From: Calditrichota bacterium
Lineage (GTDB): Bacteria > Zhuqueibacterota > Zhuqueibacteria > Zhuqueibacterales > Geothermadaptataceae
NCBI GenBank assembly: GCA_008501765.1
Contig: QQUE01000015.1
Location: forward strand, 124,001 to 188,000
Direction: 5' to 3'
Length of the DNA: 64,000 nucleotides
A program made the translations under genes and the position numbers. Below the pieces are notes generated by a model. The model saw only the letters and a list, made by a program, of their open reading frames with translations. It made no database searches and was not told the origin of the DNA. Below are positions 26,224 through 55,863 of this stretch, piece after piece (within the stretch, counting starts at the first letter, position 1; each line of letters opens with the position of its first letter).

Positions 26224-27210
26224 GCAACTCCCGGGCCAAAGAAACAGAACATTAATTATTCTATTATAAATGCATGATTTACGCAAAAAATAAGAACAAT
26301 TTATACCAAGCAATTCTTTGCAATTTTAAGAAACAAAGTTAATATTTCTTAAATTCGGAAAATTCGTGCTTTTCTTGCAATGCGTCCGGGCGATTAGTCC
26401 TGAATTAAACATTGGCGAGGACATTGGATAAAAATTCATAAAAGAAATTGTGTAGCCTGCTCCCTGGTGGGGCACAGAATGCGCTACTCCATTGCGAGAC
26501 TCACGGATCTGATCAACCCATAACCGGTTGGACTACGGTGGCAATGTCAATAACTATTGGAAATTTTTCAGTTTATTCATTTAATCCATTAAAGGGCGTT
26601 ATACAGTTGTATTTTATGCTTTTCAGGTCAATTCTCCTTGCTTGTCAATAAAAAGATTATGATATTGATAAAACTGTAGAATTACTTATTAGTAGCCCCG
26701 TCAAAATAGCTTATGTTTTTCCGTGGGTATTAGTAGAAATTATGTTAAAAATGGAGTCGTGACCACGAAGTCCAAATATCGGTTTCAAGGTATTCGTTCC
26801 GAGGCGTTAGGACATGTCTATTGACAGTTATCCTGTTTTCAGGAGCGCCCTTACCTTCTGTGTGGCGCGACTCCATTTTATTAAAATTCCACACATTCGA
26901 TCTTTTAAATTTCTTATTGCTTTAATGGTATTTTCCCGATCACCTTTCACGGTTGGCAATGGAGTTCAAAAGGCAAAACACGGTCGACATTTGTGAAAAA
27001 ATTGGTTGCACTTGCAAAAGTTTTTTTATCGCTCAGATTTTTCGTGCCATGTGTCACAGTGCTAACTCAGCCTTCCATTTGACCACGAAAACGCTTCAAA
27101 CTTTATTGAATTTGGATCGGCATGAATTTACAGATATGAGCATTTTTATTGGCCACGATAGTCGTGGTACCTAAAGGTAATGTTTGCCGTTAAAATATTG
27201 GTATCTGACG
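26224..27210. other. Gene-poor stretch
   Basis: Almost 1 kb without a supported gene. Frames of 60-73 residues have no ribosome site and no recognisable composition. It includes copy A of a dispersed repeat (26599-26687). No transposase remnant was recognised. Confidence 0.5.
26599..26687 (+). repeat. Dispersed repeat, copy A
   Basis: Begins TTATACAGTTG, contains CTCCTTGCTTGTC followed by ATAAAAA, and ends AAAACTGTAGAATTACTT. It matches 35686-35785 at roughly three positions in four. ACAGTT and AACTGT at the two ends are inverted. In both copies it follows a GG(C/A)GTTATAC sequence, similar to the end of an attC site. Confidence 0.65.
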
Positions 27211-31024: not shown

Positions 31025-31161
31025 AACTGGACAATTGCAATTCGATAAATCGTGGATGGTGATTTGCTAATCTTCGCTCTCCTGCAAATACTTTGGGCCA
31101 CATTCCAATTTAAAACTCAGTTGAATTGATAATCAACCTGCTCTGGTCCATACGACTATTT

Positions 31162-31326
31162 AACGTGAGCTCGATGTAAGAAAAATTGGGACAAAACGAA
31201 TTAATTATAGGATATAGTCCGAAGGCGTCCCGCCGAGGATAACGCACGAAACGCTCGGCGAGACGCCTTCGCTCTATTTTAATTATGCTTTGTAAAGTAT
31301 GTTACAGCTAACATCAAACTCACGTT
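31162..31326 (+). mobile_element. 165-bp miniature inverted-repeat element, copy 1
   Basis: The ends are AACGTGAGCTCGATGTAAG and, inverted, AACGTGAGTTTGATGTTAG (16 of 19 match). The element is flanked by ATTT on both sides (31158-31161, 31327-31330), a 4-bp target duplication. It encodes nothing. A GC-rich hairpin at 31220-31271 (GAAGGCGTC ... GACGCCTTC) fills the centre. A second copy of identical length is at 55381-55545. Confidence 0.85.
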
Positions 31327-31509
31327 ATTTAAATTAGAAATCAACTTGATCATTTTAAAAACAAAAGTGACCCGCCGCGCACAATTTAATGGAATTCACA
31401 ACGTGTTGCTTTTTTCCTGTCATTTCATTATGCATAGAACCCATAATCAATAAATTTTTTATAAAAGATGCTTAACATATTTATAATTATACTGTTGAAT
31501 GTAGATTGA

Positions 31510-32946: not shown

Positions 32947-33555
32947 ATGCCAGAAAATATCACAATAGCAGCATTCGTTTTAGGTGCCGTGATGCTGTTA
33001 ATTTCAATTGTCGGCGGCAAATTCAAGATATTCGGGGCAGAAGTATCTGCCATGGCAGGCCCGATCAGCAGGATATTCGCCGGGATTGTGGGAACTCTAT
33101 TGCTTGGTATTGGACTTTATAATTCGCTTTATAAATTGGATGCCACGCAAACAGAAGAAAGTGCCAAGCCTTTAGTGGAATCATCACAACCTGCAAAAAT
33201 TAAATCGGTTCCGGAGACGGAGTCGTCCAAGGCGCTGCCCGCGACCTTTGTGCTGGGGAAGTTAACTTGTATAATTCCGCAGGAGCCGGGAGGCGAGGAT
33301 CGAGTCTACTTAAAGTTGGGCGAATCAAAACCTACCAAGGTCTGGAAACTAAAAGCTGGTGAGAGCATTCAAGTAGGACTAACCGTAGCGGCCGGCACCA
33401 GTGTTACTTTGTATGAAAAGGATGGATTATTGACCGATGGAGACGACGATTTTCTCGGCACGGCAAAGCTAATCGGCCGCAGCGGAACCCTGCAATTCAA
33501 GATACCCGAGATAGGCGACCATTTCTACACACTGAGCTACGAACCAGGAGGATAA
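32947..33555 (+). CDS. Two-TM membrane protein with C-terminal beta domain
   Basis: 202 residues; AAGGGAG lies upstream of the ATG. Membrane segments at ~5-23 (ITIAAFVLGAVMLLISIVGG) and ~40-60 (ISRIFAGIVGTLLLGIGLYN) are followed by a Ser/Lys/Glu-rich linker (~70-100). A ~95-residue beta-rich domain follows, with DRVYLKLGESKPTKVW, AGESIQVGLTVAAG and TDGDDDFLG, the acidic run suggesting calcium binding of a C2-like sort. I do not recognise the family. The last 57 codons exist again, diverged, at 35419-35589. Confidence 0.7.
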   Translation: MPENITIAAFVLGAVMLLISIVGGKFKIFGAEVSAMAGPISRIFAGIVGTLLLGIGLYNSLYKLDATQTEESAKPLVESSQPAKIKSVPETESSKALPATFVLGKLTCIIPQEPGGEDRVYLKLGESKPTKVWKLKAGESIQVGLTVAAGTSVTLYEKDGLLTDGDDDFLGTAKLIGRSGTLQFKIPEIGDHFYTLSYEPGG

Positions 33556-33672
33556 TGGCAGTCGGCCACAGACCACCAACCTTTATCTGTATTTGTGGAC
33601 GCAGTTTCAGGCTCGATTATTGATTTTGGTAAATTCGATTTTTCCAAAAAAGCCAGGTAAGGTGAAAATAAC

Positions 33673-34137: not shown

Positions 34138-35295
34138 ATGAAAAATTTAAAATTTGGCGTTATTGGGACTTCAAGAAAAGAAGATGAGCTCCGCATTCCA
34201 ATCCATCCGGAACACCTGGTTCGCCTTTCAGAACATATTCGTCGGCAGCTCATATTTGAGGAAGGTTATGGTACACCGTTTGGTATTAGCGATTCAGAAA
34301 TGTCTGATCAGTCAGGTGGTGTTGCAACACGCCACGAACTATTGGCCGACCTTGGGAATGTCATCCTTGCCAAACCCGTCTTAGCTGATTTTGAAGAACT
34401 ACGCGAAGGTGGAATCCTGTGGGGTTATCCCCACTGTGTGCAGCAAAGGGCGCACACCCAGGCTGCGATCGATCGCAAACAGACACTTATCGCTTTTGAG
34501 GATATGTTTGTGTGGGGACCAAACGGGCAAATTGGCCGCCATACGTTTTATAAAAACAACGAAATGGCAGGCTATTGCGCGGTATTACATGCGCTGCAAC
34601 TAAAAGGAATCGACGGACACTACGGTAACCAGCGTAAAGTCGTCATTTTTAGTTTTGGTGCGGTCAGCCGTGGCGCAATATACGCACTAAAAGCGCGCGG
34701 ATTTAGAGATATCACTATTTGCATTCAGCGTCCCGATCACGAGGTACGTGAGGAAGTGCTTGATTGTCACTATGTCCGTATTCGTGAAGGCGGAAAAGGT
34801 GAAGCGCGCATGTTGGTGGTCGAGCACGATGGAACAGAACAACCCCTGATCGATTTGATCAGTCAGGCAGAAATTATCGTAAATGGAACTTTCCAGGAAC
34901 CGGATCATCCCATTCTGTTCGTCGCGGAAAATGAAATATCGTATCTCAGGCCGGGCTGCCTGATTATTGACATCAGTTGCGACGAGGGTATGGGATTCAG
35001 TTTTGCCAAACCAACCACGTTTAAAAATCCTATGTTTAAGGTTGGGAAGGTAGATTACTACGCCGTGGATCACACACCGAGTTATTTATGGGAAAGTGCA
35101 TCGCGCTCTATCTCTGCCGCTCTCATTGTCCATTTGCCGACCATATTAGCGGGTCATAAAAGCTGGGAACAAAATGAGACCATTCGACAAGCGGTAAATA
35201 TTGATGCCGGCGTTATTAAAAAACCAGATATTATATCATTTCAGCACCGTGAAGCCACTTATCCACACGCCCCCATTAATACGGGGAGTAACTAA
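34138..35295 (+). CDS. AlaDH/PNT-family dehydrogenase, like N5-(carboxyethyl)ornithine synthase
   Basis: 385 residues. The alanine-dehydrogenase/transhydrogenase fold is shown by FGVIGTSRKEDELRIPIHPE at the start and FEEGYGTPFGISD. YPHCVQQRAHTQAAIDRKQT is close to the CEO-synthase branch, with EDMFVWGPNGQIGRHTFYKN, the Rossmann segment VVIFSFGAVSRGAIYAL, and DISCDEGMGFSFA. Known CEO synthase joins ornithine and pyruvate reductively with NADPH; substrate here is not provable. AAGAAAGAAA lies upstream of the ATG. It is a single gene inside a ~2-kb segment bounded by duplicated 3' ends of the 32947 gene, which points to acquisition as a module. Confidence 0.72.
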   Translation: MKNLKFGVIGTSRKEDELRIPIHPEHLVRLSEHIRRQLIFEEGYGTPFGISDSEMSDQSGGVATRHELLADLGNVILAKPVLADFEELREGGILWGYPHCVQQRAHTQAAIDRKQTLIAFEDMFVWGPNGQIGRHTFYKNNEMAGYCAVLHALQLKGIDGHYGNQRKVVIFSFGAVSRGAIYALKARGFRDITICIQRPDHEVREEVLDCHYVRIREGGKGEARMLVVEHDGTEQPLIDLISQAEIIVNGTFQEPDHPILFVAENEISYLRPGCLIIDISCDEGMGFSFAKPTTFKNPMFKVGKVDYYAVDHTPSYLWESASRSISAALIVHLPTILAGHKSWEQNETIRQAVNIDAGVIKKPDIISFQHREATYPHAPINTGSN

Positions 35296-35418
35296 GGTTT
35301 CGAGGGCGACTGGCTTAAGTAGCACATCACTTTTCGCAAAATCTGAACGCAAACACATTTAGATTTCAGCTTGGTTTATTATCTCCGGATGGCATTTGGG
35401 TATTAAATAATTCCGGCC

Positions 35419-35589
35419 GTAGAAGCCGGCACCAGTGTCACCATGTATGAAAAGGACGGATTATTGACCGCTGGAGACGACCATTTTCTCGGTAAGGCAA
35501 ACCCAACAGGCTCTGGTGGAACGCTGCAATTCAAGATTCCCGAGATAGGCGACCATTTCTACACACTGAGCTACGAGCCCGGGAGCTAG
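35419..35589 (+). pseudogene. Orphan 3' end of a 32947-type gene
   Basis: 57 codons including the stop, with no upstream part. They match 33385-33555 with 46 or so of 56 residues identical (EAGTSVTMYEKDGLLTAGDD, then FKIPEIGDHFYTLSYEPG). The frame is open and many changes are synonymous. Similarity continues for ~70 bases past both stops (GGC.GTC.GCCA). It is a fragment of a diverged homologue, not a fresh copy. Confidence 0.82.
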
Positions 35590-35685
35590 TGGCCGTCAGC
35601 CATAAACTACCAACTTTTGTCGGTGTTGCTTGGCGCAGCATCTGGCATAATTACGCGGTTACTTCATATCATCCTTACGAGGGAG

Positions 35686-35785
35686 TTATACAGTTGAATA
35701 TCCTGGTTTTAAGGCCAAATCCCCTTGCTTGTCGATAAAAATATTCTGATATTATTATATTATTGGGAAAACTGTAGAATTACTT
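35686..35785 (+). repeat. Dispersed repeat, copy B
   Basis: TTATACAGTTG to AAAACTGTAGAATTACTT, matching copy A (26599-26687) with a few small gaps; it shares CCCCTTGCTTGTC and ATAAAAA. It ends ~50 bases before the GHKL-nuclease gene. Confidence 0.65.
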
Positions 35786-35836
35786 GTTATACCATTTTAG
35801 AATTTTAATTCAATAAGAAAGTTGGATTTAAAACAC

Positions 35837-37591
35837 ATGAAGAATTCAGCTCATTTTAAAGTACACCCCAAATTAGCAGAACTTCTTGGAGAAACCTACA
35901 GATCAGTTGAAGTAGCAATAAAAGAATTAATTGATAATTCATATGATGCTGATGCTGAGAATGTCAATATTAGCTTGCCTAAAGAGCTTCAACCTAATCC
36001 GGAGATTATCATTGAGGATGATGGTTTTGGTATGAAAGAAAGTGAAATAAGAACAGAATATTTAGATATTGCAAATAGTCGGATATCTCGTAAAGGAGAC
36101 AGGTCATTTAAAAAGAAAAGAAAGGTTAAAGGGCGAAAAGGAGTAGGTAAATTCTCAGGGTTAATGGTGGCAAATTTCATGAAAGTTGAAGCATTTTCGT
36201 CTGGCCAAAAAACAACTTTGATCATTAATAAGGATGAACTTGCAAGAGCAAATTTTGATTTAGAGAAAGTACCTTTACCGATTGATGTAGAGGAATGCGA
36301 TAAAGATAAACATGGTACAAAAATTACACTCGAGGGCTTAAACCAGAATCTTAATTTTCCAAACCCAGATAAACTCAAAGAAATTCTTATGCGAGATTAC
36401 GGCCGAGAAAATGATTTTTGTTTAATTATCAATAAAAACAATACTGGCGTTCTTGATTTACTCGGGAAGCAGTACTCAAAAGAAATTATTTTGGAAAATG
36501 GTAAAAAAGCATCACTTAATTATACAGTTACAAACAAACCAGTTAAAAATTCTGGAATTGCTATACGCGTTAATAACAAAATAATCGGTAAACCCCATAA
36601 TTATCTTTCAAGTGATGAAATTATTCCGAAAAAACTCCAAAGTAGAGTTTACGGTGAATTGATTTGTGATGATTTAGAAAATGATGTAACAGCTGATTTT
36701 GGTGCTATAATTGAAAATAGTAAATTATATAGTGAGGTCAAAAAAGAGACTGTTGAGCAATTAAAAATTTCTGTGGATGAAGTTTTTAAAACTGATATGA
36801 AAATGGCAAGAGCTCGCTACCAAAGAAAAATAAATCGTGAATTAGAAAAACTACCTGAATATAAACAACCTTTCGCACGCAAAGCTTTATTTAGAACATT
36901 GGAAAAATTTTATGGAGAAAGCGAAGAGCGAATTAATACTGTTATTTCGGTGATGGTATCGGCAATGGAAAAAGACCATTATTGGGATATCATTCATAAT
37001 ATTCAAGAAACAAGAAGTGGTGATATTGAGAGATTTGCAGATGCATTAAATGATTTCGGAATACTTGAAATGAGCATAATATCCAGCCAAGCAATTAATA
37101 GAATGAGGTATTTAGATGAACTTAATTTATTAATTGATAATCCAAAAACTTTAGAGAAAACTATTCATAAAGCACTGGAGAAAAGCACTTGGATTATTGG
37201 AGATGATTATTCCGTACTATTTTCTGATATTAGTTTTGAAAAGGCAATAAAGACTATTCTAGATAAAAAATATAAAGGTGATAAAGCGTTAGATAGACCA
37301 GATTTATTGTTTGGAAGAAAATTGAATAGAGAATTAGTTTTATTCGAGCTTAAGAGACCAGATTTTACTCTAAATCGAGAAACAGAAAAACAAGCTCTTG
37401 AATATCGTGATGAGTTAAATACATATTTTCATAATCAACATATAGAAATAGTATTGTTAGGTGGTAGAATAAAACAAAATATAAGCTCACATAATGAAAG
37501 AGAAGATGTAAAATTTAGAACATATTTAGATATGATCAGTACGGCAAGAAATCGTCTTGAGTGGCTACTAAATGAATTAAAAATAGAATGA
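35837..37591 (+). CDS. GHKL ATPase fused to PD-(D/E)XK nuclease-like domain
   Basis: 584 residues from ATG 35837 (TTG 35822 is possible; the ribosome site is weak). Numbering from the TTG: GHKL (Hsp90/MutL/MORC-type) ATPase motifs are KELIDNSYDADA (34-45, Mg-binding Asn), EDDGFGM (65-71), a lid GRKGVGKFSG (104-113) and HGTKITLEG. A charged helical middle (~300-450) follows. The C-terminus has RPDLLF (492-497), LVLFELKRP (E509, K511) and QALEY (Q524, Y528). That is P-D ... E-x-K plus the Q-x3-Y helix of RecB-like PD-(D/E)XK nucleases. Single-gene GHKL-nuclease proteins suit phage or plasmid defence; I infer that role. The gene is strikingly AT-rich and is followed by an attC-like site. Confidence 0.85.
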   Translation: MKNSAHFKVHPKLAELLGETYRSVEVAIKELIDNSYDADAENVNISLPKELQPNPEIIIEDDGFGMKESEIRTEYLDIANSRISRKGDRSFKKKRKVKGRKGVGKFSGLMVANFMKVEAFSSGQKTTLIINKDELARANFDLEKVPLPIDVEECDKDKHGTKITLEGLNQNLNFPNPDKLKEILMRDYGRENDFCLIINKNNTGVLDLLGKQYSKEIILENGKKASLNYTVTNKPVKNSGIAIRVNNKIIGKPHNYLSSDEIIPKKLQSRVYGELICDDLENDVTADFGAIIENSKLYSEVKKETVEQLKISVDEVFKTDMKMARARYQRKINRELEKLPEYKQPFARKALFRTLEKFYGESEERINTVISVMVSAMEKDHYWDIIHNIQETRSGDIERFADALNDFGILEMSIISSQAINRMRYLDELNLLIDNPKTLEKTIHKALEKSTWIIGDDYSVLFSDISFEKAIKTILDKKYKGDKALDRPDLLFGRKLNRELVLFELKRPDFTLNRETEKQALEYRDELNTYFHNQHIEIVLLGGRIKQNISSHNEREDVKFRTYLDMISTARNRLEWLLNELKIE

Positions 37592-37635
37592 TTAACAGAT
37601 TTGCTATAGTTAAAATTAAATAAACAAAACTATTG

Positions 37636-37766
37636 GTATAACATCTGGCTGGTGTGGGACTCGCTGCGCTCGTGCTAGTTTCCGATTTTTTGGTAGTGCA
37701 AATTTGGGTGGCTTCGTTGACTTTCCGTGGCGATCCCCCGCTCGCGCCCACAGGCAGGCGTTATGC
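37636..37766 (+). repeat. attC-like site 1 (integron cassette recombination site)
   Basis: 131 bases starting GTATAAC and ending GCGTTATGC. The two ends are imperfectly inverted: GTATAACATCTGGCTGG faces GCATAACGCCTGCCTG (complement of the right end), and then GTGGG faces its complement CCCAC with unpaired bases between. This is the R''-L''/L'-R' layout of attC sites. It lies 45 bases after the GHKL-nuclease stop in the expected orientation. The right core GTTATGC deviates from the strict GTTRRRY. No integrase gene is in the window. Confidence 0.5.
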
Positions 37767-37827
37767 TCGAGTAACAATGCTAAAACGTTAATTAACCTAA
37801 ATCTTAGACCTATTCCCGGAGGTTTTA

Positions 37828-39096
37828 ATGAGCAAGAGTAAAAACACTTTCTACACTGCACTACTCTTCTTAACAACATCACTCGTATTTGGACAGTCTG
37901 AGGCCACAGTTCAATTCCTGTTAATCAATCCATCGAATGTGGCAATGGGAAAAGGAGGAACTTCTGTTGTTAATGCATATTATGACCCTGCATCAGTTCT
38001 TTTTAATCCTGCCAATATTGCTGATATGGATATAAACAACAGATTTAGCGTTGTTGGACAATCACATCTTAAAAGCTCAGGCTGGCTGCCACAACTTACG
38101 TCAGATTTAAGCTATACTTCCCTGACTAACCAATACGGCCTCAAGATTCCGAATACTCGGCTAAAATTAGCCACAGGTTATTCCTTGATTCATTTCGACC
38201 TTGACAAACAAGACATTTACGCTGAGGACAGCCCCATTCCTATTGCCACATTTCATTCAAAAGAAGATGCTCATGTTTTTACATTGGGTATGAATTACGA
38301 GTATTACATAAAATTAAATGTGGGATTCAATGCTAAAAAATTCACTTCAAAGCTCGCTCCAGCTTTATCTGATACTTCACAAGCCGGTGATGGTTCAGCC
38401 TCCGGCTGGGGATACGACTGGGGTTACACCATCAAGGCTCCTTTAATAGACTGGTATGATTTCAAGCAGCATTCAAAAATCATCAAACCGTTTCTTAGCT
38501 TGGGCTACGGCTTTTCAAAAAGTAATATTGGTGATAAGGTTACCTATATTGATGAATCACAGGCCGATCCACAGCCAAGAATTGCCAGACAAGGTCTCAA
38601 TTTATTTGGAGGTGTAAAGATTTCGGGAAACGGTTTTGACTTTGATATCTTGTCCATAAATTATTCAAGAGAATTAAGCGATTTATTAATAAATCGGTAT
38701 ACAGATTCGAATGATGAAATCCAAATAGAATATGAAGGTGGGAATGGCAATATCAATTTTTGGGATAATATCTTCAATAAAAATATTCACATGAAAGTGA
38801 TATCTGAACGTGGAATTGAGGTAAATTTCATCGAGACCTTAATGGTACGAACCGGAAAGCACAAAGATATTCGCGGCAGGGTAATTTATGACACTTTTGG
38901 ATATAGTTTCCATTCAGTAGGCGCATTCAAATTGTTAAATTTCATAGATTCTGACTTAACTCAAAACAATTCGTTATATAGTTTCTTGCTCAATTCTGAT
39001 TTTTATTTTGATTATTATAAATTAGAACCAATTAATTGTGGACACCCATTAGATGACACATGGCACACAAGTTTAGGCGTTATAATACATTTTTAG
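37828..39096 (+). CDS. PorV/FadL-like outer-membrane protein in a possible cassette
   Basis: 422 residues with a Sec signal peptide (MSKSKNTFYTALLFLTTSLVFG cleaved before QSEA is approximate). The start of the mature part, NPSNVAMGKGGTSVVNAYYD followed by PASVLFNPANIAD, is the PorV/PorQ and FadL-like N-terminal motif. Repeated beta-strands follow, ending WHTSLGVIIHF with terminal Phe. CGGAGG precedes the ATG. It should form a 14-strand-type outer-membrane barrel; PorV itself shuttles T9SS cargo, but this protein's cargo or ligand is unknown. It begins 62 bases after one attC-like site and ends ~105 before another. It is AT-rich relative to the PorV-like gene at 39510. Confidence 0.75.
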   Translation: MSKSKNTFYTALLFLTTSLVFGQSEATVQFLLINPSNVAMGKGGTSVVNAYYDPASVLFNPANIADMDINNRFSVVGQSHLKSSGWLPQLTSDLSYTSLTNQYGLKIPNTRLKLATGYSLIHFDLDKQDIYAEDSPIPIATFHSKEDAHVFTLGMNYEYYIKLNVGFNAKKFTSKLAPALSDTSQAGDGSASGWGYDWGYTIKAPLIDWYDFKQHSKIIKPFLSLGYGFSKSNIGDKVTYIDESQADPQPRIARQGLNLFGGVKISGNGFDFDILSINYSRELSDLLINRYTDSNDEIQIEYEGGNGNINFWDNIFNKNIHMKVISERGIEVNFIETLMVRTGKHKDIRGRVIYDTFGYSFHSVGAFKLLNFIDSDLTQNNSLYSFLLNSDFYFDYYKLEPINCGHPLDDTWHTSLGVIIHF

Positions 39097-39202
39097 GAAT
39101 TAGATTCAGACCAGTTTAGGTTCATTTAAGATCTTTATAGATTGAAGTTGTTTAGTATTTTATGTCTAAACATTAAATGGTGATGGTAAAGTAAAAATTA
39201 TG

Positions 39203-39331
39203 GCATAACCTTTTGCTGGTTGGGAATTGCTGCGCTTGTGCCAGTTTCAATTTTTTGGGTAGTGTAAAGTTCGGCGGTTTCGTCGACATTCTGTGGTGAT
39301 CCACCGCTCTCAGCAGACCATAGCGTTCAGG
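39203..39331 (+). repeat. attC-like site 2 (degenerate right core)
   Basis: 129 bases related along their length to 37636-37766 (shared GCTGCGCT, GTGCYAGTTTC, ATTTTTTGG, TAGTG and GTGGYGATCC.CCGCTC). The left end GCATAAC is intact; the right end reads GCGTTCAGG where GCGTTATGC would be expected. It follows the outer-membrane protein gene in the same orientation. It may be a dead or diverged cassette site. Confidence 0.45.
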
Positions 39332-39389
39332 TTGGCTGTACTGCGTCAGCCTGAATCGCGCCGGATAAAAAGGTACAAGCGTTTCCCAT

Positions 39390-39509: not shown

Positions 39510-40556
39510 TTACAAACCAAAACGGAACGAGAAAACATTGTTGGCATCAAAGAATTCGGTGCTGCGATAGGCGTAGTCAATTATCAGCGTTGTACCGCTC
39601 ACATTGTATTTCAAGCCGGCGCCGGCAGTGAAACCAAATATATTTGTTGCCTGCCCCGTTGCATCCTCCGAGCCCTCGGTTGAAAGGCCATAACCACCGC
39701 GCAAAAAGAACATATCGTTCAAAGCATATTCAGCGCCGAGAATAGCAAGATCGTCGGAGAAGTCATTGTTTTGGAACATGCCATTGACGGTCAATTTACT
39801 TTGCTCATTGATTGTATTCGTATATCCAAGACCGATCTCAAAACGGGATGGCAACTCGTCCGTACCCGGAATCAAATTTACCTGCGATTCCTGTCGGGAT
39901 ACATCTTCAAGTTCAGCCTGGGAGCGCTGCAAACCGGTGCCGTTAAACGCCATTCCGGGGCCGAAATTCTTGATCGCGACACCGAGATCGAGCCCTTCGA
40001 TATTACCGAGATCGGCGTATTGCACCCCAAAATCGAATGCAAATCCACTGGCGCTAACCTGGTCGATGGTTTCGGTGATGAAATTTGCAGTGCCACCCAC
40101 AGCCACTTTATCCGTCAAGGTGCGGGAATAGGACAGGCCGGTTGTAATGAACTGCGGGGAGAAAAGTTCACCTGTGCCATCCGGCGCATCCACTGTGGTG
40201 ATTGGAATATCACCCAAATTGAGAATTTTCATGCTCAAACCAATGGAACCAAAACCTTCGAAATTTGTCGCGCCGGCTATATAATTTACGTCGGCATCGA
40301 CAAAATAAGTCATGTGGGAAAACATGGCTGCAGTCCCAAACTGGCTTTTCACCAGTCCCGCCGGGTTCCAGTAAATGGACTCAATCCCTTCGGCATTGGC
40401 AATGGAGCCGCCGCCCATGGCAAAATAACGCGCGCCCACCGGTATCAGCAGCTCGGAAGCTGCGTTTGATCCAAGGCGCTGCCCAAACGAATTCGTGCTC
40501 ACAAGCATGAAAAGCGCCAGGCTTAAAATGAATGTTGTTTTATATGTATTTCTCAT
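39510..40556 (-). CDS. PorV/PorQ-family outer-membrane protein
   Basis: 348 residues; signal peptide MRNTYKTTFILSLALFMLVS with cleavage near FGQ. ELLIPVGARYFAMGGGSIAN and GIESIYWNPAGL are the PorV family signature (T9SS cargo shuttle, FadL-like barrel). Further strands are GGTANFITETIDQV, GLDLGVAIKNFGPGMAF and YAYRSTEFFD, ending FSFRFGL. It is the last gene of a reverse-strand set with a large secreted protein and a TonB receptor. I infer that it helps move that neighbour across the outer membrane. A clear terminator follows. Confidence 0.9.
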   Translation of the reverse strand: MRNTYKTTFILSLALFMLVSTNSFGQRLGSNAASELLIPVGARYFAMGGGSIANAEGIESIYWNPAGLVKSQFGTAAMFSHMTYFVDADVNYIAGATNFEGFGSIGLSMKILNLGDIPITTVDAPDGTGELFSPQFITTGLSYSRTLTDKVAVGGTANFITETIDQVSASGFAFDFGVQYADLGNIEGLDLGVAIKNFGPGMAFNGTGLQRSQAELEDVSRQESQVNLIPGTDELPSRFEIGLGYTNTINEQSKLTVNGMFQNNDFSDDLAILGAEYALNDMFFLRGGYGLSTEGSEDATGQATNIFGFTAGAGLKYNVSGTTLIIDYAYRSTEFFDANNVFSFRFGL

Positions 40557-40652
40557 ATTCTAACTCCTGTATTTGTTAGAATCATAACTTCATCATTTAA
40601 AAACCGAGGTATTGTGGAAGGCCAATTAAAATTCTTCCGCACCCTGATTTCA

Positions 40653-43600
40653 TTAATACCTGCGCAAATACTGTTGTTCACGAATAATTGCGAGTTTGAG
40701 TTTTTTATTAACATTAAGGTCATCCATTTCAACATGAACAAAATAGATTCCACTGGCAGCAGGAAGCCCGTTTTCATTTAACATATCCCACTGAGCAAAC
40801 TGCGATGGATCGTCTTTTTCAATGGTTCGCACCAAAGTCCCGGCGAGGGAGAAAATCCGTAGCACAGCTCTTTCAGGCAGGTGGTTAAATGTCACGTAGC
40901 GATCAAAATAATCCGTCTCATTGCGGTGCATGCCGTAATATGGATTCGGAAAGACGTTTATTTGCTTAATATCATTCTTCGCTAACTGGCTGCTTGAACT
41001 TGGCTCATAGCCATCTGTTGAAAAAGTAAATGAGTCATTTGCGGTATTTGGTTTTGTGGAGTGGATGCGGATAATCGTTCCGGAAACCGGAGGCAATCCG
41101 TTCTCATCAAAATCACAGACAAGAAGCCGGCCCAATACTTCGCCACCGATGTGGGCGACAAAATCTCCACCTGAGTTTACCGCAGCAGCAAAATCATCGT
41201 AAGTCGATCCCTCTGCCGGGACACGCCAGTAAATCCGGTCAAATGCGGGATAGCCGAATGCGCCATCAACGCCGTGGTCCGGGGTGTAGGCATCGGCTGT
41301 ACCAGCGCCTTCAAACATCCATGGGATGCAGCGATAATCATCGCTGGCATCATCAAAAGTGGCCATGCCGACATTCCACAATTCAAACGGAACAGAGCCG
41401 GTACCGAGGCTTGTGTAACCCCAATATGCCATGCTTCCGGCATCAGAAAAACGGATTTCCCAGTCGAATGGTACGAGAATACTTGGGGTAAACCGCATGG
41501 CACTTTCATCCGCTGAACTCGTGCTGACAAAATAGCGGTCGGAATAACCACCGGCGTTCAAACTATGCCAGACATTATTACCGCCGAACGGAGTACCGTT
41601 GCCATCCCAATCAGCCTCAGCAAGGGGGCCGTTTTCGTTGGCGACTTCAATAATTGCCGGGTCACCGTTGGCCATACGCAGCCAATCTTGCGGGGCACCA
41701 AAAACTTTTACCATGAGACCGTCGGTTATGAGGTAAGTATCATCGCCGGTCTGATTGGTCTGACCGGTTAATTTCACTTCATTCGTTGTTGTATTTGTGA
41801 GATCCCACACATCTTGTGTTTCATATTCAGGATGTTCCGGGTCATGTAAATCGACAGAAACGGTATCGATGCGGAAGGTCACAGAGTAATTGTCGCCAGT
41901 GACTTTCGTCGGATCAACCACGATCACCTGAACATCGCCATCGCTGATGCCATTATGCACAATCCCTGTGAGCGTATCGCCCATGGCCGTGTGCAAGCGT
42001 TCGCCCGGTTTTTCTGTTTGCGGAACGACAACAACGACAGCCATCGTGCTTTCAAGAGTTTTCAAGACAGCATCGGGATCGGGATTGCTGCTGTAGGCTG
42101 AGATACCAAAATAATAAGGTGTGCCGTTGGCCAATGGCGCCTCACGAAATGCATCTCTGGTTATGCGCAGTGAGTGGCGGATGCCAGAATTACTGCCGAA
42201 TTGAACAGGCAACTGCAAAACCAGGCCGGATACAGCATCAAAATCGTCCTGCGAAACAACGGTTACTTCATCGATGATGTCGTAAGTCGCCAGTCTGATT
42301 CCCTGGCTTTTTCCTGCGCCACTGGAGGGCAATTGAAAAACATTATAGCCCTGAAAAGTATGGCCTTTTTTCGCAAAACTTTCCACCGCAGCAACGAGGG
42401 CAGGATCGCTGCCCCACTCGAGCAAAATTTCATTGCCAAACTCAGTCGCGTTGAGTGGTGGCGTCGGTGGCGGTGAAGGCAGTTCGAAGAGATTATCAAA
42501 TGCATCTTGCGCTGTTTTATCAAAAAACTTGAGCACTGCCACGCTTGAAAGGCGGTCTGAACCCAGAGCCGCCAAAGCAGCCACAACCAATTCGGAAGTA
42601 TCACCGAGAGCCATGGTGAAAGGACCAGCTACCTGTCCCATGCGGCGGTCGCCCTGGTTAGCGTCAATATCGCCGGTTCCAGCAACAGGATCGCCGGCAA
42701 CGCGAAAACGCGTTACATTTCCTTCGTTATTAACCCAGGGAGTCGGTGGCGTTTCCGGGCGTGGCTTGAAACCACGCAGCAGATTCCAGAATTGCAACGT
42801 TCCCTGGTAGGGGCCGTTGTTCGTCGGATCGGAATCCGTCTGGCCGGAAGCAAAAAAGAAAAATGTCGACATTGGCAAGTTTCTGAAGCCGGGAACTTCT
42901 TTCAGGCCGATAATCGCCGTTGCATTTTCATCGGGCACAGCCGGGCCGGCAAAAAAGTCAAATCCGGAAGCGGCTGGCGCCAAACCATTGGGAGCAAATT
43001 GCGCATCACTGGCGACGGCGTTGTAAACAAAGCCGAGATCCAAAGTTGTGTCGCAACCAACGAAGTCATCACCCCCGGAGCCGAGGTCAGGATCTGCCCA
43101 CTGGCAAAAGTACATGCTGTCAATTGTTGCGTTGGCTGGCGTATCCGCACGGCCTTTATAAATTACGCGGAATTGTTTAAATATAACATTTCCAAGGGCA
43201 TCGGCACGGCGGTAGGCCCACATAGTGAGCTGCTGTTCCATGCCAATTGGTGGTGAACCATAAAGGCCGGCGACGGCTGTTTCGTTTAAATCATTGGAAA
43301 CAGACCACGCAACCTGATCGCCATTGGCATAACCCGGTTCATCCCCATCAGGAAAGAGAATTGGCAATCCGTTGGCATCAAATTGTGGATTGTATTCGCC
43401 ATCTCCATCCGCATCATAAAATGGAGCGCCTTTATGTGTTGGCCAGTCCACCCAGTCTTCGCGATAACGATCGCGAATCGTTTGAATTTGGCCGGCAGTA
43501 ACTGCCGTGGGCTGAATAATAAAATTCTCCGCCGCATCCAAAACAAGGTCTGCATTAAGTGCTGAAGCAAAATCACGCCGGATGCGCCAGATGCGGTCGA

Positions 43601-44027
43601 CATTTTGCACATCACTGCGGTCTTCGGCTACACCTTTGCTAAGAATTGCTCCAGGTACAGTACCATTGGAAAAAGCCTGGCCACCAACCCGGACTGCCGG
43701 TTCGATGCCGTCATTGACGATACCACCCCAAATAATACCATCCGTAAACATGACCCAGGTAAGTGGGTTGTTGCCGCGGGGAAAATACATCCCGCCGGTA
43801 CTGCCACCTAACGGGTAAGCTGAGGTATTTCCAGCCGCATACGCCCACATGGCCACGGCACCGATATTCACCAGCGTCTGGTTGACCGTGTTGTCAGATT
43901 GTGCGATGGCGGAGCCGGACCGTGCTTTGGCCAGACGTGATCCGCCTTCTTCTGCCTGCACCGACGAACTCAGCGTCAGCAACAGAAGACTGAGGACAAT
44001 TGAAGTTATTTTTTTTATTTTTCGCAT
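40653..44027 (-). CDS. Large secreted protein, member 3 of the unrecognised family
   Basis: 1124 residues; signal peptide MRKIKKITSIVLSLLLLTLS ending at VQAEE. Family core (~50-450): VMFTDGIIWGG, IVNDGIEPAVRVGG, RIWRIRRDF, PFYDADGDGEYNPQFD, DEPGYANGDQVAW, GSPPIGMEQQ, VIFKQFRVIYKG. Residues ~525-1010 hold fibronectin/Ig-like beta regions. The end (~1020-1124) is a FlgD-Ig/T9SS type A-like tail (QINVFPNPYYG, LPAASGIYFVHV). It is the best-preserved member of the family by context: TonB receptor upstream, PorV-like gene downstream, gaps of ~160 and ~100 bases. Likely exported by T9SS; activity unknown. Confidence 0.82.
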   Translation of the reverse strand: MRKIKKITSIVLSLLLLTLSSSVQAEEGGSRLAKARSGSAIAQSDNTVNQTLVNIGAVAMWAYAAGNTSAYPLGGSTGGMYFPRGNNPLTWVMFTDGIIWGGIVNDGIEPAVRVGGQAFSNGTVPGAILSKGVAEDRSDVQNVDRIWRIRRDFASALNADLVLDAAENFIIQPTAVTAGQIQTIRDRYREDWVDWPTHKGAPFYDADGDGEYNPQFDANGLPILFPDGDEPGYANGDQVAWSVSNDLNETAVAGLYGSPPIGMEQQLTMWAYRRADALGNVIFKQFRVIYKGRADTPANATIDSMYFCQWADPDLGSGGDDFVGCDTTLDLGFVYNAVASDAQFAPNGLAPAASGFDFFAGPAVPDENATAIIGLKEVPGFRNLPMSTFFFFASGQTDSDPTNNGPYQGTLQFWNLLRGFKPRPETPPTPWVNNEGNVTRFRVAGDPVAGTGDIDANQGDRRMGQVAGPFTMALGDTSELVVAALAALGSDRLSSVAVLKFFDKTAQDAFDNLFELPSPPPTPPLNATEFGNEILLEWGSDPALVAAVESFAKKGHTFQGYNVFQLPSSGAGKSQGIRLATYDIIDEVTVVSQDDFDAVSGLVLQLPVQFGSNSGIRHSLRITRDAFREAPLANGTPYYFGISAYSSNPDPDAVLKTLESTMAVVVVVPQTEKPGERLHTAMGDTLTGIVHNGISDGDVQVIVVDPTKVTGDNYSVTFRIDTVSVDLHDPEHPEYETQDVWDLTNTTTNEVKLTGQTNQTGDDTYLITDGLMVKVFGAPQDWLRMANGDPAIIEVANENGPLAEADWDGNGTPFGGNNVWHSLNAGGYSDRYFVSTSSADESAMRFTPSILVPFDWEIRFSDAGSMAYWGYTSLGTGSVPFELWNVGMATFDDASDDYRCIPWMFEGAGTADAYTPDHGVDGAFGYPAFDRIYWRVPAEGSTYDDFAAAVNSGGDFVAHIGGEVLGRLLVCDFDENGLPPVSGTIIRIHSTKPNTANDSFTFSTDGYEPSSSSQLAKNDIKQINVFPNPYYGMHRNETDYFDRYVTFNHLPERAVLRIFSLAGTLVRTIEKDDPSQFAQWDMLNENGLPAASGIYFVHVEMDDLNVNKKLKLAIIREQQYLRRY

Positions 44028-44188
44028 ATTATTCTCCGTAGACTAAAAGCTTGAATGAATACGTGTTATACCTTTTCTTTCAATCTTCCCGCAGCCCCTT
44101 TCGTGAAAAAGGGGCTTGCAGGGAAAATTTTAAGAGGAGGTTCAAAGACAGCTTAAGTCAAGTTCAAAACCCATTTAATGGGATAAAT

Positions 44189-47100
44189 TTATAATCCAAA
44201 ACGCATACCAAAACGAAGCTGACGTGGTGCGCCAAAGAGCAATAATCCGTAATTATTTTCATAATTCACCCCGTTGCCATTCAGATTGATCGCATTGTGC
44301 ATGGCGATATATGCATCCCCGCCGTGAGCCGCAATTACGGATTGACTTATTTCCGGGGTGGCGACGAAGCCGTCATCCCAGGCATTGCCGGTGCGTTCAT
44401 AAACATTAATTACATTGCGGCGATTCGTCAGGTTCTGAGCGTAGAAGTAAAAATTGACATCCAGGCTGCCGAAGTGGACAGATTTATCGAGCCGTAAATC
44501 GAGCTGATAATTCCATGGTGTCACGGACGCGTTGATAGCCTCAACCGGAATTCTGGAACGTGAATCCGTAATAACTCCGGCTGTTGCCGCCGCTTGCTGA
44601 CCAAAAGCGCCGCGAGCCCGCGTGTACGGGTGGCCGCTATTGAAAGTCATCAGCAGGTTCGCACCCAATTCTTCCAATAGCTGATTGCCTTCGCCTTTTG
44701 CGAAACGGTAGTCGATATTAACAGAGCCGCGGTGCCGCTGATTAAAATTCAGTGGTTGAACCACGGAAGGCGTTGAGTTGTTGGCAGAAGTTCCGGCAAT
44801 CGCGGAAAATGGCGTCGAGCCGGTGCCGAGAGCGGTGGAAAATGTGTAATTCATTTGGCCGGCAAAGCGATTCGTCCGGCGCAACGTTACCGCTAACTCG
44901 ACACCTTTTGTGGTGGCAAAATCACCATTTTGCAGCACATTGTAGCTCGCAGCCCGTGATGCAAAATCAACGAGCACACGACCTGGCTGAATCTGATCGT
45001 TTACTTCTTTATAAAATGTGGTAATATCAAAAGAAGCATTGTCAGCGAACTGGTGATTAAAGCCAATTTCGTACTGGGTTGTTTTTTCAGGGTCTAATCC
45101 GAATCCCACAGGTCGGCTGAAAAAATTTCCGCCATTAAAAAGGGCCTGATAAAATGCCTGGCCGGTGTAAATATCATTAAGCCGCGGCGCCTGCACAAAT
45201 TTTCCATATTGCACATGAAAAACTGTGTTATCCGTCGCCGGAAAGGCCAGCCCGACACGTGGACTCACAGTGACATCCGGGTCCATCAATACCAGCGCAT
45301 CTTCTTCGATAAATCCCGTCTCGGCATTCCACGGTGGGTTTAGCGGATCTTCGAAATGAAAATCATCATTGTCAATATAATCCAGCCGTAACCCGGCATT
45401 AATGACCAAATCCGAAATTTCGAATTTATCCTGCAAATATGCGGCATAATATTTCGGTGACCGTGGCCCGTTTACACCTTCGTCGTCGAGTTCATTGCCG
45501 AAGACATCGTAGCCGTAAGTCGGATACCAGCCCGCGCCGAACATGACCTGCGACAGTGCTTCTTCGTCACCAGCAACAGCTTCTCTGAATTGATCCGGAT
45601 TGTTGACCATACCTGTAAAAATGTTTCTTTCAAGCGTATGGAATTCCCGTGTTTTCCAGAGTTCAAAACTACCACCGGCCTTAATTTCATGCTGCTTCCA
45701 CTGTGTCGTGAAGTTCGCGGAACCGCTGATATAATTTTGCCGGCCCTTCACGAAATTTTGTGGGGTACCCGGAACTGTCATTCCAAAACCGGCGATAACC
45801 ATTGGATTTCCGGCCAACGGCGTTGCCCAGTTCGTTAAAGTCACACCGGCATCTGAGTTGGAAAGGCTGTCCCAATAAGTATAAAAATTATCACCCAGCA
45901 GCGGATCATAACTTTTGCGACGGCTATCAAATGCATTGATATTTAACTCATAAAAAGTCGTCGGATTGACCAGGTGCGTCACTTTCATATTAACAAGCGC
46001 CGTGCTGCGGTCCGTTAACCCGACACGGTCGAGATTGCTCAATCGGGCAAATAAATTTGGGGACTGTAATTGATTGTGCTGGCCGGTGATATCCTGCTGG
46101 CGCTGCCAGGAAACAGCCGTACCGAGTCGAATTGTAAAAGGATTGGCATCATAAACCAGAGTGCCGTTTCCTGTCCAGCGTTCCGACATGGTCTGCGGGA
46201 TATTGCCATCAGGAGAGTGAATGCCGTCCGGTACGAGTTCGTTAAAAACCTCTGTCACCATCGGGAAGTTGTTTTCATCCACATACGTGTCCGCATGGTA
46301 AAAATCAAAGCCATTCCAAAATCGGACAATCCTGTCGCGCTGGAATTGATTATCGCCGGCCATAAAAAATTTAAGCTTGTTATTAAATCCCGGCACCGGG
46401 CCGGAAGCCGTGAGCGTGTAATTGCTGTATCCGTAGGAAAAGGTATTGAGAAATTGCTCGCCCTGATCGGCAAAATTGTCGGTTTCTGCCTGAAAACTGA
46501 ATTGATATTTATCAGAACCGGCCTTAAGCGAACGGCTAACAATCCCTGCATTGGCGCCGCCAAATTCAGCATTAAAGCCACCAGCTTGCACCTGAAATTC
46601 TTCCAAAGCTTCAGGAATAATAGCTGCGAGATCGTTGCCATAAACAGGATCCCGGGTATTGGCGCCTTCCAGTGAATAACCGACCTCGTCGGCACGGCCA
46701 CCCCGGATATAAAGCTGGCCATCCTGGGCAACAACGCCGGGTTGCAGCGCGACGATGGCAGCCACACCGCGCACAGGCACGTTTTTCATTTCTTCATAGC
46801 TTTGAATACGCACAGCGTTGGTTGCGTTTTTATTGACCAACGGCCGTTCCGCGACAATCGAAATTGCTTCAACAGCCAGGGCCTCAACCGGGAGATCAAA
46901 AGTAAGTGTGGTTGTCAGCCCGCTATTAATCCGTACTTCTGTTATTTCAACAGCACGGTAGCCGATAAATTCAGCCTTTAATGTATAAGTGCCGACGGGC
47001 ACGTTTAAAATCACGAAATTTCCATTCACATCAGCGGCACCACCCAGCGTCGTTCCCGGGATGGTCACATTGGCACCCGGTAGCGGGTCACCGCTTTCGC

Positions 47101-47200
47101 TGTCGAGAACTGTTCCGCTGATTTTACCTACTGTGGCGCCAAAAACAAGGGCCGGAAAAAGCAAAACCAACAGAAGCAGCACGATCATTTTTTTTTGCAT
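44189..47200 (-). CDS. TonB-dependent receptor with carboxypeptidase-regulatory domain
   Basis: About 1003 residues from ATG 47200, which has GGAGGAAATTCC directly upstream; the longer frame adds nine residues before the signal peptide MQKKMIVLLLLVLLFPALVF. A carboxypeptidase-regulatory/DUF4480-like domain (~25-110: ISGTVLDSESGDPLPGANV, DVNGNFVILNVPVGTY), a plug (VPVRGVAAIVALQPGVV, LYIRGGRADEVGYSLEG) and a 22-strand barrel ending LRFGMRFGL follow. It lacks an STN domain, so it is not a sigma-signalling type. It imports or passes a large substrate through the outer membrane; co-transcription with a T9SS protein and PorV suggests a dedicated surface system. Confidence 0.9.
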   Translation of the reverse strand: MQKKMIVLLLLVLLFPALVFGATVGKISGTVLDSESGDPLPGANVTIPGTTLGGAADVNGNFVILNVPVGTYTLKAEFIGYRAVEITEVRINSGLTTTLTFDLPVEALAVEAISIVAERPLVNKNATNAVRIQSYEEMKNVPVRGVAAIVALQPGVVAQDGQLYIRGGRADEVGYSLEGANTRDPVYGNDLAAIIPEALEEFQVQAGGFNAEFGGANAGIVSRSLKAGSDKYQFSFQAETDNFADQGEQFLNTFSYGYSNYTLTASGPVPGFNNKLKFFMAGDNQFQRDRIVRFWNGFDFYHADTYVDENNFPMVTEVFNELVPDGIHSPDGNIPQTMSERWTGNGTLVYDANPFTIRLGTAVSWQRQQDITGQHNQLQSPNLFARLSNLDRVGLTDRSTALVNMKVTHLVNPTTFYELNINAFDSRRKSYDPLLGDNFYTYWDSLSNSDAGVTLTNWATPLAGNPMVIAGFGMTVPGTPQNFVKGRQNYISGSANFTTQWKQHEIKAGGSFELWKTREFHTLERNIFTGMVNNPDQFREAVAGDEEALSQVMFGAGWYPTYGYDVFGNELDDEGVNGPRSPKYYAAYLQDKFEISDLVINAGLRLDYIDNDDFHFEDPLNPPWNAETGFIEEDALVLMDPDVTVSPRVGLAFPATDNTVFHVQYGKFVQAPRLNDIYTGQAFYQALFNGGNFFSRPVGFGLDPEKTTQYEIGFNHQFADNASFDITTFYKEVNDQIQPGRVLVDFASRAASYNVLQNGDFATTKGVELAVTLRRTNRFAGQMNYTFSTALGTGSTPFSAIAGTSANNSTPSVVQPLNFNQRHRGSVNIDYRFAKGEGNQLLEELGANLLMTFNSGHPYTRARGAFGQQAAATAGVITDSRSRIPVEAINASVTPWNYQLDLRLDKSVHFGSLDVNFYFYAQNLTNRRNVINVYERTGNAWDDGFVATPEISQSVIAAHGGDAYIAMHNAINLNGNGVNYENNYGLLLFGAPRQLRFGMRFGL

Positions 47201-47312
47201 GGAATTTCCTCCATTTTGAATAAGCACGAGAGAAATTCTTGTTTATTAAATTGTTAGTAGCAATCATTCAGCTGATTATTTGCGATCAACGAGCGCTGCT
47301 TGCTAACTCCGA

Positions 47313-53975: not shown

Positions 53976-55382
53976 ATGAAACGTACAAGGTTACTTCTGA
54001 TCGACACGCATGGCAATATCAACAATCTTTTTAAAAAGCCGGCGTTTAAAAACTGCACAATTACAGAATCAACTTCACGAGAATCTGAAGTTTTATTGCA
54101 CCTCGAGACGCACGATCTCATTATTATTACTGCATCATGTATTTCAAGCGAAATCCTGGCTTTAATAAAAATGATCCGCAGTGCAAAACCGGAACTACAT
54201 ATTATCGGTGCAACAGAAGAACCTTCTTCTCAGGAAGTTGTCGCGGCTTATCGTGCCGGGTTATCCGATTATTTTTTTCTGCCGCTAAATGAGGAAAAGC
54301 TCTGCGGCATCTTAGAAGCTGTCTGCGAAAAAACTGCGTGTAAAAATAAACTCGCCCGATTGAGCAAGTATTGGAATGAAATTCGAAAGGGATATTTAAT
54401 TGCCTTTGGAAAAACGGCACAATTCATTTTCACCAGAACTGATGGAAGAGAAATGTCTTTTCACAATGGCAATGGTACTGCACACCATCTCGGATTTGAC
54501 CGTAAAACAACAAAAATTTTGCAACCGCCAACAATAGAATCCAGCAAAAAGAAAGCTGATTTTGTGCATTCCGTAAATAATGTACATATTGCCACTCCAA
54601 ATAACGCACCCAACGGCAATCTAAATCTGGAAGTCGCCAGCCTTGGCAAGCTGAAAGTGAAATTTAACAAGTTCAATATTGAAAATTGGCCAAGCCGTAA
54701 AGGAAGAGGGATTTTTGCCTACATCGCAACTTCAAGGCAGAAAATTTACCGTGACATTCTTATGGAAAAATTCTGGCCCGATGCCTATCCGGAATCCGCT
54801 CGCAACTGTCTCAATGTTGCCCTGCATGGCTTGCGGCGTACATTTAATCAAGTGGACTCTGACAATGAATGCCTGCTCTATAAGGATGAGTGCTACTACC
54901 TCAATCCTGACCTAAATTTTTCATGCGACGTCCATATTTTTCGTAGACTCTATCAAAATGCCCGCAGCCTTGAAAATGAACAAAAAACCAATCTCGCACT
55001 CGCAAAATACCTGGAAGCAGTTAAAATTTATCGTGGTGATTTTATGGAAGATGACCTCTATGAAGAATGGCCTACATTGGAGCGAGAGAATTTACGGGAA
55101 AAATATTTTAATGTGCTGGAGCGGTTGAGTTATCACTATATAAAAATGAAAAAATTTCAGGAAGCCATCCAGATGTGCCAGCAAATACTTAATCGTGATA
55201 GCTGCCGCGAGGACGTGCACAGAAAACTGATGTTATGCCATTATTATAGCGGCCAGCGAGACCGCGCTCTCATCCAGTTCCAAAGATGCCAAAAATCGAT
55301 GCACGACGATCTCGGTGTCGTACCCAGCAAAGCGACAATTGAGTTAAAAGAAAAAATACGTTTGGAACAAATTATTAATTAA
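53976..55382 (+). CDS. SARP-like transcription factor with degenerate receiver
   Basis: 468 residues. The N-terminal ~115 residues have a receiver fold (RLLLIDTHGN, THDLIIITASCISSE, RAGLSDYFFLPLNEEKLCGI). The phosphoacceptor position that should be Asp after DLIII is Thr, so it is a pseudoreceiver. After a low-similarity linker comes an OmpR-type winged helix (~225-315: FNIENWPSRKGRGIFAYIAT, LMEKFWPDAYPESARNCLNV). A bacterial transcriptional-activation domain with TPR-like helices follows (~320-468: YRGDFMEDDLYEEWPTLERE, QRDRALIQFQRCQK). Such SARP/BTAD proteins activate neighbouring gene sets. The stop codon is shared with the left end of a miniature element. Removing that element would leave the same TAA. 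Confidence 0.88.
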   Translation: MKRTRLLLIDTHGNINNLFKKPAFKNCTITESTSRESEVLLHLETHDLIIITASCISSEILALIKMIRSAKPELHIIGATEEPSSQEVVAAYRAGLSDYFFLPLNEEKLCGILEAVCEKTACKNKLARLSKYWNEIRKGYLIAFGKTAQFIFTRTDGREMSFHNGNGTAHHLGFDRKTTKILQPPTIESSKKKADFVHSVNNVHIATPNNAPNGNLNLEVASLGKLKVKFNKFNIENWPSRKGRGIFAYIATSRQKIYRDILMEKFWPDAYPESARNCLNVALHGLRRTFNQVDSDNECLLYKDECYYLNPDLNFSCDVHIFRRLYQNARSLENEQKTNLALAKYLEAVKIYRGDFMEDDLYEEWPTLERENLREKYFNVLERLSYHYIKMKKFQEAIQMCQQILNRDSCREDVHRKLMLCHYYSGQRDRALIQFQRCQKSMHDDLGVVPSKATIELKEKIRLEQIIN

Positions 55383-55545
55383 CGTGAGTTCGATATAAGA
55401 AGAATTGGGACAAAACGAATTAATTATAGGATCTAGTCCGAAGGCGTCCCGCCGAGGATAACGCACGAAACGCTCGGCGAGACGCCTTCGCTCTATTTTA
55501 GTTATGCTTGGTAAAGAATGTTACAGCTTACATTGAACTCACGTT
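55381..55545 (+). mobile_element. 165-bp miniature inverted-repeat element, copy 2
   Basis: Ends AACGTGAGTTCGATATAAG and inverted AACGTGAGTTCAATGTAAG (17 of 19 match), flanked by AATT on both sides (55377-55380, 55546-55549). Same length as copy 1 and with an identical GC-rich central hairpin. Inserted exactly at the TAA of the SARP-like gene without changing the protein. Confidence 0.85.
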
Positions 55546-55863
55546 AATTAACAGCCTGCGTATGATTGACACTATTCCCTGTCAACATCCCCCAAACTCC
55601 CCTCAAAACAAGGATGCGACTTTATTATTCATCTGATTTTGGTTCAATTTTTACTTGCGCTTAACAGAAAAAGTCAATATTAATCTTTATCCCCTGTTTA
55701 AATGGATCACCATTAAAAAAATATAATTCTGAACCTTTTGCAATAAGTTCAAAATTCCGGTTTGCAAAATATTTTTTTGAATAAGTAATATAATCAATGT
55801 GTACCAGTGCTATATTTTGTCCACAATATTTAATTCTTTGTAAATGTCAAACGGAGGAGAAAC
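55546..55863. other. Intergenic region upstream of the Yip1 gene
   Basis: About 320 bases of AT-rich sequence after the miniature element, ending in the ACGGAGGAG ribosome site of the next gene. It probably holds that operon's promoter; no gene was seen. Confidence 0.5.

Follow-up and report, generated by a model that had tools for sequence, protein, structure and literature searches.

Within the Shedu family of defence proteins, the closest described relative is VcSduA of the Vibrio cholerae WASA strains, classified as Shedu type I-D, in which a GHKL ATPase domain with motifs I–IV is combined with a DUF4263 nuclease domain (PMC12137116). VcSduA confers protection from Drexlerviridae in Escherichia coli and from phage X29 in V. 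cholerae, and its E27A or K557A exchange abolishes protection; cultures were protected at all phage doses, the host cell being spared, and the single gene acts alone (PMC12137116). The architecture was first described in 2008 under the name paraMORC3, as a GHKL plus S5 module with a C-terminal E-D-ExK nuclease that Iyer et al. termed RecB-like; most paraMORCs sit in restriction-modification operons and other paraMORCs work with helicases, and standalone paraMORC3 genes were noted in Proteobacteria and Bacteroidetes (PMC2292703). As for canonical Shedu proteins, EcSduA is reported to sense DNA ends (PMC12904381).

The gene considered here is located in a 64,000-nt stretch of the genome of a Calditrichota bacterium (contig QQUE01000015.1, positions 124,001 to 188,000, forward strand), referred to as the window. 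The system is of a kind already known: judged by its sequence, the protein is a member of the GHKL-type Shedu proteins (VcSduA, type I-D, formerly paraMORC3). The gene and the parts of its product, with residues counted from the ATG start codon, are as follows.

35837..37591, + strand: GHKL-type Shedu gene (sduA-like/paraMORC3), 584 aa; based on the ORF, matches to HATPase_c_3 and SduA_C, and full-length homologues
35855..36448, + strand: GHKL ATPase domain, residues 7–204; Pfam match (E = 1e-29), TRAP1 fold match and invariant motifs
35924–35938, + strand: motif I, E30..N34, of the GHKL ATPase domain
36017–36031, + strand: DxGxG motif (D61-x-G63-x-G65) of the GHKL ATPase domain
36131–36154, + strand: G-rich lid GRKGxGKF, G99 to F106, of the GHKL ATPase domain
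36314–36319, + strand: GT motif (G160-T161) of the GHKL ATPase domain
36449..36721, + strand: S5-like transducer or middle region, residues 205–295; beta-rich segment in the AF2 model
36722..37138, + strand: helical middle or linker, residues 296–434; long helices in the AF2 models
37145..37588, + strand: Shedu-type PD-(D/E)XK nuclease domain, residues 437–584; SduA_C match, alignment to PDB 8ti8 and VIA-align
37154–37156, + strand: E440 of the Shedu-type nuclease domain
37301–37303, + strand: D489 (in R487-P488-D489) of the Shedu-type nuclease domain
37346–37354, + strand: E504-x-K506 (followed by R507) of the Shedu-type nuclease domain
37391–37405, + strand: Q519-x3-Y523 of the Shedu-type nuclease domain

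The coding sequence is a single ORF without internal stop. Met1 is common to 12 of 12 aligned homologues, which makes translation from a TTG codon at 35822 improbable; the nuclease residues D494, E509 and K511 of the earlier note were counted from this TTG and correspond to D489, E504 and K506. With a GC content of 30.8% (z = –3.2) and a GC3 of 20% (z = –3.5), both the minimum among 36 window genes, the gene is indeed as AT-rich as that note had described it. Promoter and terminator scans yielded nothing informative.

The Pfam HATPase_c_3 match spans residues 23–161. An AF2 model of the full protein (pLDDT 72, i.e., moderate confidence, with low confidence for residues 380–414) matches the ATPase modules of TRAP1/Hsp90 and MORC2/3/4 at Z values of about 16; for TRAP1 and the ATPase domain, Z is 16 with an rmsd of 3.3 over 174 residues. 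The alignments to MORC2, MORC3 and TRAP1 extend to about residue 316, at an rmsd of 10–11 over this longer GHKL-S5 stretch, so that the relative orientation of the GHKL and S5 domains is unsure. Residues 205–295 have an S5-like fold in the model, and the long helices of residues 296–434 possibly form a clamp or dimer arms.

The Pfam SduA_C match to residues 439–528 (E = 1.2e-5, 25.9 bits) is just below the gathering cut-off of 27, a score that the window protein attains (27 bits) in a six-frame search of its genome, where it is the only match; 14 control genomes contained none. All of 15 aligned full-length sequences match SduA_C, and all 15 match both SduA_C and HATPase_c_3. A profile of the nuclease half retrieved B. 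cereus SduA from the PDB (hmmsearch, E = 0.005), and E440, D489 and E504-x-K506 align on the E, D and ExK of the solved B. cereus protein (PDB 8ti8). Because the whole-protein fold search was dominated by Hsp90 and MORC and silent on the C-terminal half, the nuclease domain was modelled alone (pLDDT 72 overall, mostly 82–92 around the active site). Superposition by VIA-align placed SduA structures in all top four rows (8ti9, Z 11.9; 8ps5, Z 10.1; 8ps4, Z 10.0; 8ti8, Z 9.6), with an rmsd of 2.7 over 143 residues for 8ti9 and of 2.7–3.7 over 143–157 residues for the four; EndoMS/NucS followed at Z 9.5, just under SduA, and BspD6I/FokI at Z 7–8. SduA and EndoMS also headed the Foldseek list for this model, which had no match below E = 0.001. 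By sequence profile and predicted fold, the nuclease half is thus of the Shedu type (SduA_C/DUF4263): the proposal of a PD-(D/E)XK nuclease was correct, and its assignment to a generic RecB-like type gives way to a Shedu-like one.

The GHKL motifs and the P-D…E-x-K with Q-x3-Y, all previously read from one 584-residue protein, are invariant or nearly so among homologues. An alignment of 15 full-length sequences, comprising the window protein and relatives with 38–84% identity to it, shows unchanged E30, N34, D61, G63, G65, glycines and lysine of the lid (99–106) and G160-T161 in the ATPase half, and unchanged E440, R487-P488-D489, E504-x-K506, Q519 and Y523 in the nuclease half. Even in a wider set of 18 sequences, the most distant of which have about 20% identity, the motif-I Glu and Asn, DxGxG, E440, D489, E504, K506, Q519 and Y523 never vary. 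Loss of the nuclease motif in close homologues, which was to count against a defence role, was not seen in any homologue examined. The invariance in both halves suggests that selection probably maintains the function of the ATPase as well as that of the nuclease.

Like VcSduA, the window protein is the product of a single gene and combines an N-terminal GHKL ATPase with a C-terminal DUF4263 PD-(D/E)xK nuclease; the motif-I Glu and the ExK Lys required in VcSduA (E27 and K557) have counterparts at comparable places (E30 and K506). Compared by its published description, VcSduA belongs to another host lineage, and its two sites are separated by about 50 residues more than those of the window protein. 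This implies a longer middle region in VcSduA, and the two proteins may represent different subgroups. A 671-aa relative with VcSduA-like spacing (E24/K548) aligns over residues 9–583 of the window protein, without a significant SduA_C match of its own. The paraMORC3 description agrees in the order of GHKL, S5 and C-terminal E-D-ExK nuclease, in standalone genes and in sporadic distribution; unlike most paraMORCs, which are found in restriction-modification operons, the window gene stands alone, and its nuclease is Shedu-like rather than RecB-like. Canonical SduA of B. cereus (8ti8, 8ti9) and E. coli (8ps4, 8ps5) shares the nuclease fold and the catalytic E, D and ExK, but carries N-terminal domains of its own where the window protein has a GHKL ATPase module as predicted sensor, and is a tetramer, whereas the window protein, to judge from the modelling of VcSduA, is probably a dimer.

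Full-length homologues occur in only two of 82 genomes of the phylum, namely in the genome containing the window and, at 47% identity, in one other; two genomes of the same genus and four of the same family contain none. The closest partner in the tree is a Marinifilum protein (84% amino acid and 76% nucleotide identity, support 100/100), and the enclosing clade consists entirely of Bacteroidota, apart from one record titled ‘bacterium’, with fully supported nesting. No similarity was found between the flanks of the window locus and those of the Marinifilum locus. With only 82 genomes in the set compared, the host phylum is presumably distinct from Bacteroidota. A recent horizontal acquisition of the gene from another phylum is well supported by these comparisons. 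The same-genus genome G001 conserves the block 39510–47227, but an empty site could not be reconstructed there, its other flank matching none of the larger ORFs of the window.

The neighbours of the homologues include Gabija GajA/GajB, SIR2 with HerA, a protein with a GmrSD N-domain and a Fic protein. Some homologues reside on rhizobial plasmids, one of them a conjugative plasmid with IS21 and IS91 transposases and a tyrosine recombinase. Whole-protein searches of phage records gave no match; scanning a collection of viral contigs with the single sequence likewise found none, whereas eight loci with relatives, their neighbours including capsid, integrase and SIR2/AbiH-like genes, were recovered from these contigs with a profile. 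No credible defence gene was recognized among the other genes of the window. Overall, the genomic surroundings of the homologues suggest, as a qualitative argument, a defence and mobile context. Conservation in core genomes beside housekeeping genes, which would have spoken against a defence role, is not what the homologues display: they are sporadic and lie beside defence and mobile genes.

Taking sequence, models and analogy together, the gene very probably encodes a GHKL-type Shedu protein that acts in defence as a single-gene system, most likely by degrading phage DNA with a nuclease gated by the GHKL domain. The mechanism we propose draws on VcSduA, on DNA-end sensing by EcSduA and on GHKL biology. 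On binding ATP, the N-terminal GHKL domain would close the dimer, with the S5-like and helical middle forming a clamp, which would then meet DNA in a phage-specific state, whether free-ended, topologically unusual or a replication intermediate; this encounter is the weakest step of the scheme. With ATP turnover, the Shedu PD-(D/E)XK domains at the C-terminus would be released and would nick or cut this DNA. As with VcSduA, phage DNA would presumably be cleared without killing the cell, amounting to non-abortive defence.

Type II restriction enzymes of the BbrUII/HgiDII kind (NF050001), which cut unmethylated sites and need a partner methylase, have a related GHKL N-terminal domain, and the N-terminal half of the window protein matches NCBIfam restrict_BbrUII (E = 1.5e-39) and PADLOC REase_II (E = 2e-18). 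However, the restrict_BbrUII match scores 136 bits where 550 are required, its best stretch covers only residues 20–205, and the C-terminal half, being of the Shedu type, is left unmatched; moreover, there was no methyltransferase among the 16 window neighbours scanned, nor any methylase beside the homologues examined except one phage-type D12 methylase at the phage-contig relatives, and we consider a restriction enzyme very unlikely. The resemblance of the ATPase to MutL/MORC and of the nuclease model to EndoMS/NucS (Z 9.5) would fit a housekeeping DNA-repair or mismatch-type endonuclease, composed of a MutL-like ATPase and a NucS/EndoMS-like nuclease. Such a role is highly improbable for a gene that is present in two of 82 phylum genomes after recent cross-phylum transfer, whose homologues are found in defence island, plasmid and prophage contexts, and for which Shedu structures outrank EndoMS.

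The protein might also be one part of a multi-gene system, i.e., paraMORC3 with a helicase or another partner that was lost or is located elsewhere in the genome. A DEAD/DEAH helicase gene is found upstream, on the opposite strand, at both rhizobial plasmid homologues (L041:3019–5547 and L042:2997–5525; PDC-S28 in L041), and other paraMORCs do work with helicases (PMC2292703); the rhizobial helicase gene is possibly a partner, or possibly a separate single-gene defence candidate. Against this stand the lack of a partner recurring across the Bacteroidota or phage loci, the standalone paraMORC3 genes of Proteobacteria and Bacteroidetes (PMC2292703) and the ability of VcSduA to act alone (PMC12137116), which make a multi-gene system an unlikely explanation. 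A horizontally moved single-gene defence system, as the earlier note had suggested, is hence the best reading; the suggested profile search of the full protein against defence families, with its HATPase_c_3 and SduA_C matches, provides the named system, GHKL-type Shedu, and the low GC content, the 2/82 distribution and the nesting among Bacteroidota proteins bear out the horizontal movement, the anti-phage activity being the presumed part.

This reading extends a recently validated, little-studied class of ATPase-gated Shedu proteins to a new phylum, and a homologue set with invariant ATPase and nuclease residues is now available for the class. GHKL ATPase cycling is familiar from MutL, Hsp90 and MORC, and GHKL-Shedu proteins could reveal how such cycling gates an immune nuclease.

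The less ordinary part of the finding, and the only one, is the setting of the gene next to a possible cassette recombination site. The attC-like elements are listed below, with G000 denoting the genome of the window and G002 a sister genome.

37632..37770, + strand: attC-like imperfect palindrome with TAAC..TGCTG / CAGC..GCGTTA boxes, immediately following the gene on its 3' side; further copies in own and sister genomes; consensus fold
39201..39332, + strand: second attC-like element, partly degenerate, after the next ORF (37828–39096)
G000:C13:197803–197934, C10:213653–213781 and C14:832793–832926: attC-like copies in the same genome
G002:C554:2425–2554, C399:2897–3029 and C212:8334–8462: attC-like copies in the sister genome

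The element comprises about 131 nt; in the consensus, its TAAC...TGCTG end is base-paired with its CAGC...GCGTTA end, and both resemble attC boxes (TAAC/GTTA, TGCTG/CAGCA). A covariance model built from four copies detected six in the own genome (two lie in the window and two on C14, one of the latter being weak with 30 bits, while C13 and C10 have one each) and three in the sister genome; a search of 14 other genomes gave no match. The copies sit just 3' of an ORF, with the model orientation reversed for some, as a near-palindrome permits; the other genes preceding them include those of an HSDR_N+RAMA protein and an AAA_13 protein, both defence-like. Support for the element came only from the multi-copy comparison, as single-strand folding of one copy was no better than that of shuffles and the site did not exceed chance when the window was scored crudely for single-copy palindromes. 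One complete integron integrase (TIGR02249, 448 bits) is encoded in the genome, not beside the window gene but on another contig (C16:2427–3368, near the contig end), whose first 20 kb contain no copy of the attC-like family of the window. About 2 kb from the integrase gene, blocks of about 600 nt consisting of 49-nt tandem units were observed (L039:5314–6944).

Given the further copies of the attC-like site within the genus, the gene may have moved as an integron cassette; since the single-copy test was not above chance, this status is plausible but unproven. At 1.75 kb, a GHKL-Shedu cassette would be large for a cassette. Somewhat short of an even chance, in our estimate, is the further idea that several defence-like genes, this one included, are carried on dispersed single integron cassettes, each followed by the genus-specific attC-like site. 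If true, it would amount to a scattered cassette-borne defence repertoire in this phylum, in which, to our knowledge, none has been described. The attC-like context would also connect GHKL-Shedu systems with integron cassettes beyond Vibrio. That integrons store defence genes has already been reported (PMC12409362).

As to the flanks named in the earlier note, the attC-like site is present at 37632–37770, whereas the upstream ‘dispersed repeat’ turned out to duplicate, in part, the 3' end of ORF 32947–33555: positions 33383–33619 and 35417–35653 of the window form an 81% direct repeat, the second being a truncated copy. An AlaDH/PNT-like gene (34138–35295) consequently sits between a gene and its fragment. 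The best matches of its product in six same-genus or same-family genomes have 21–23% identity over most of the length; with no close relative in these genomes, the gene may, like the neighbouring sduA, have been acquired. A further repeat of 105 nt (26562–26666 and 35649–35753, 76% identity) is located upstream of a WD40-repeat ORF (at 27184) and, in its second copy, of the sduA-like gene. Finally, a dispersed palindromic repeat, GAAGGCGTCCCGCCGAG / CTCGGCGAGACGCCTTCG, which is REP- or MITE-like, occurs at 31144–31332 and 55363–55551 of the window and on the integrase contig C16 (L039:3593–3650 and 9585–9642).
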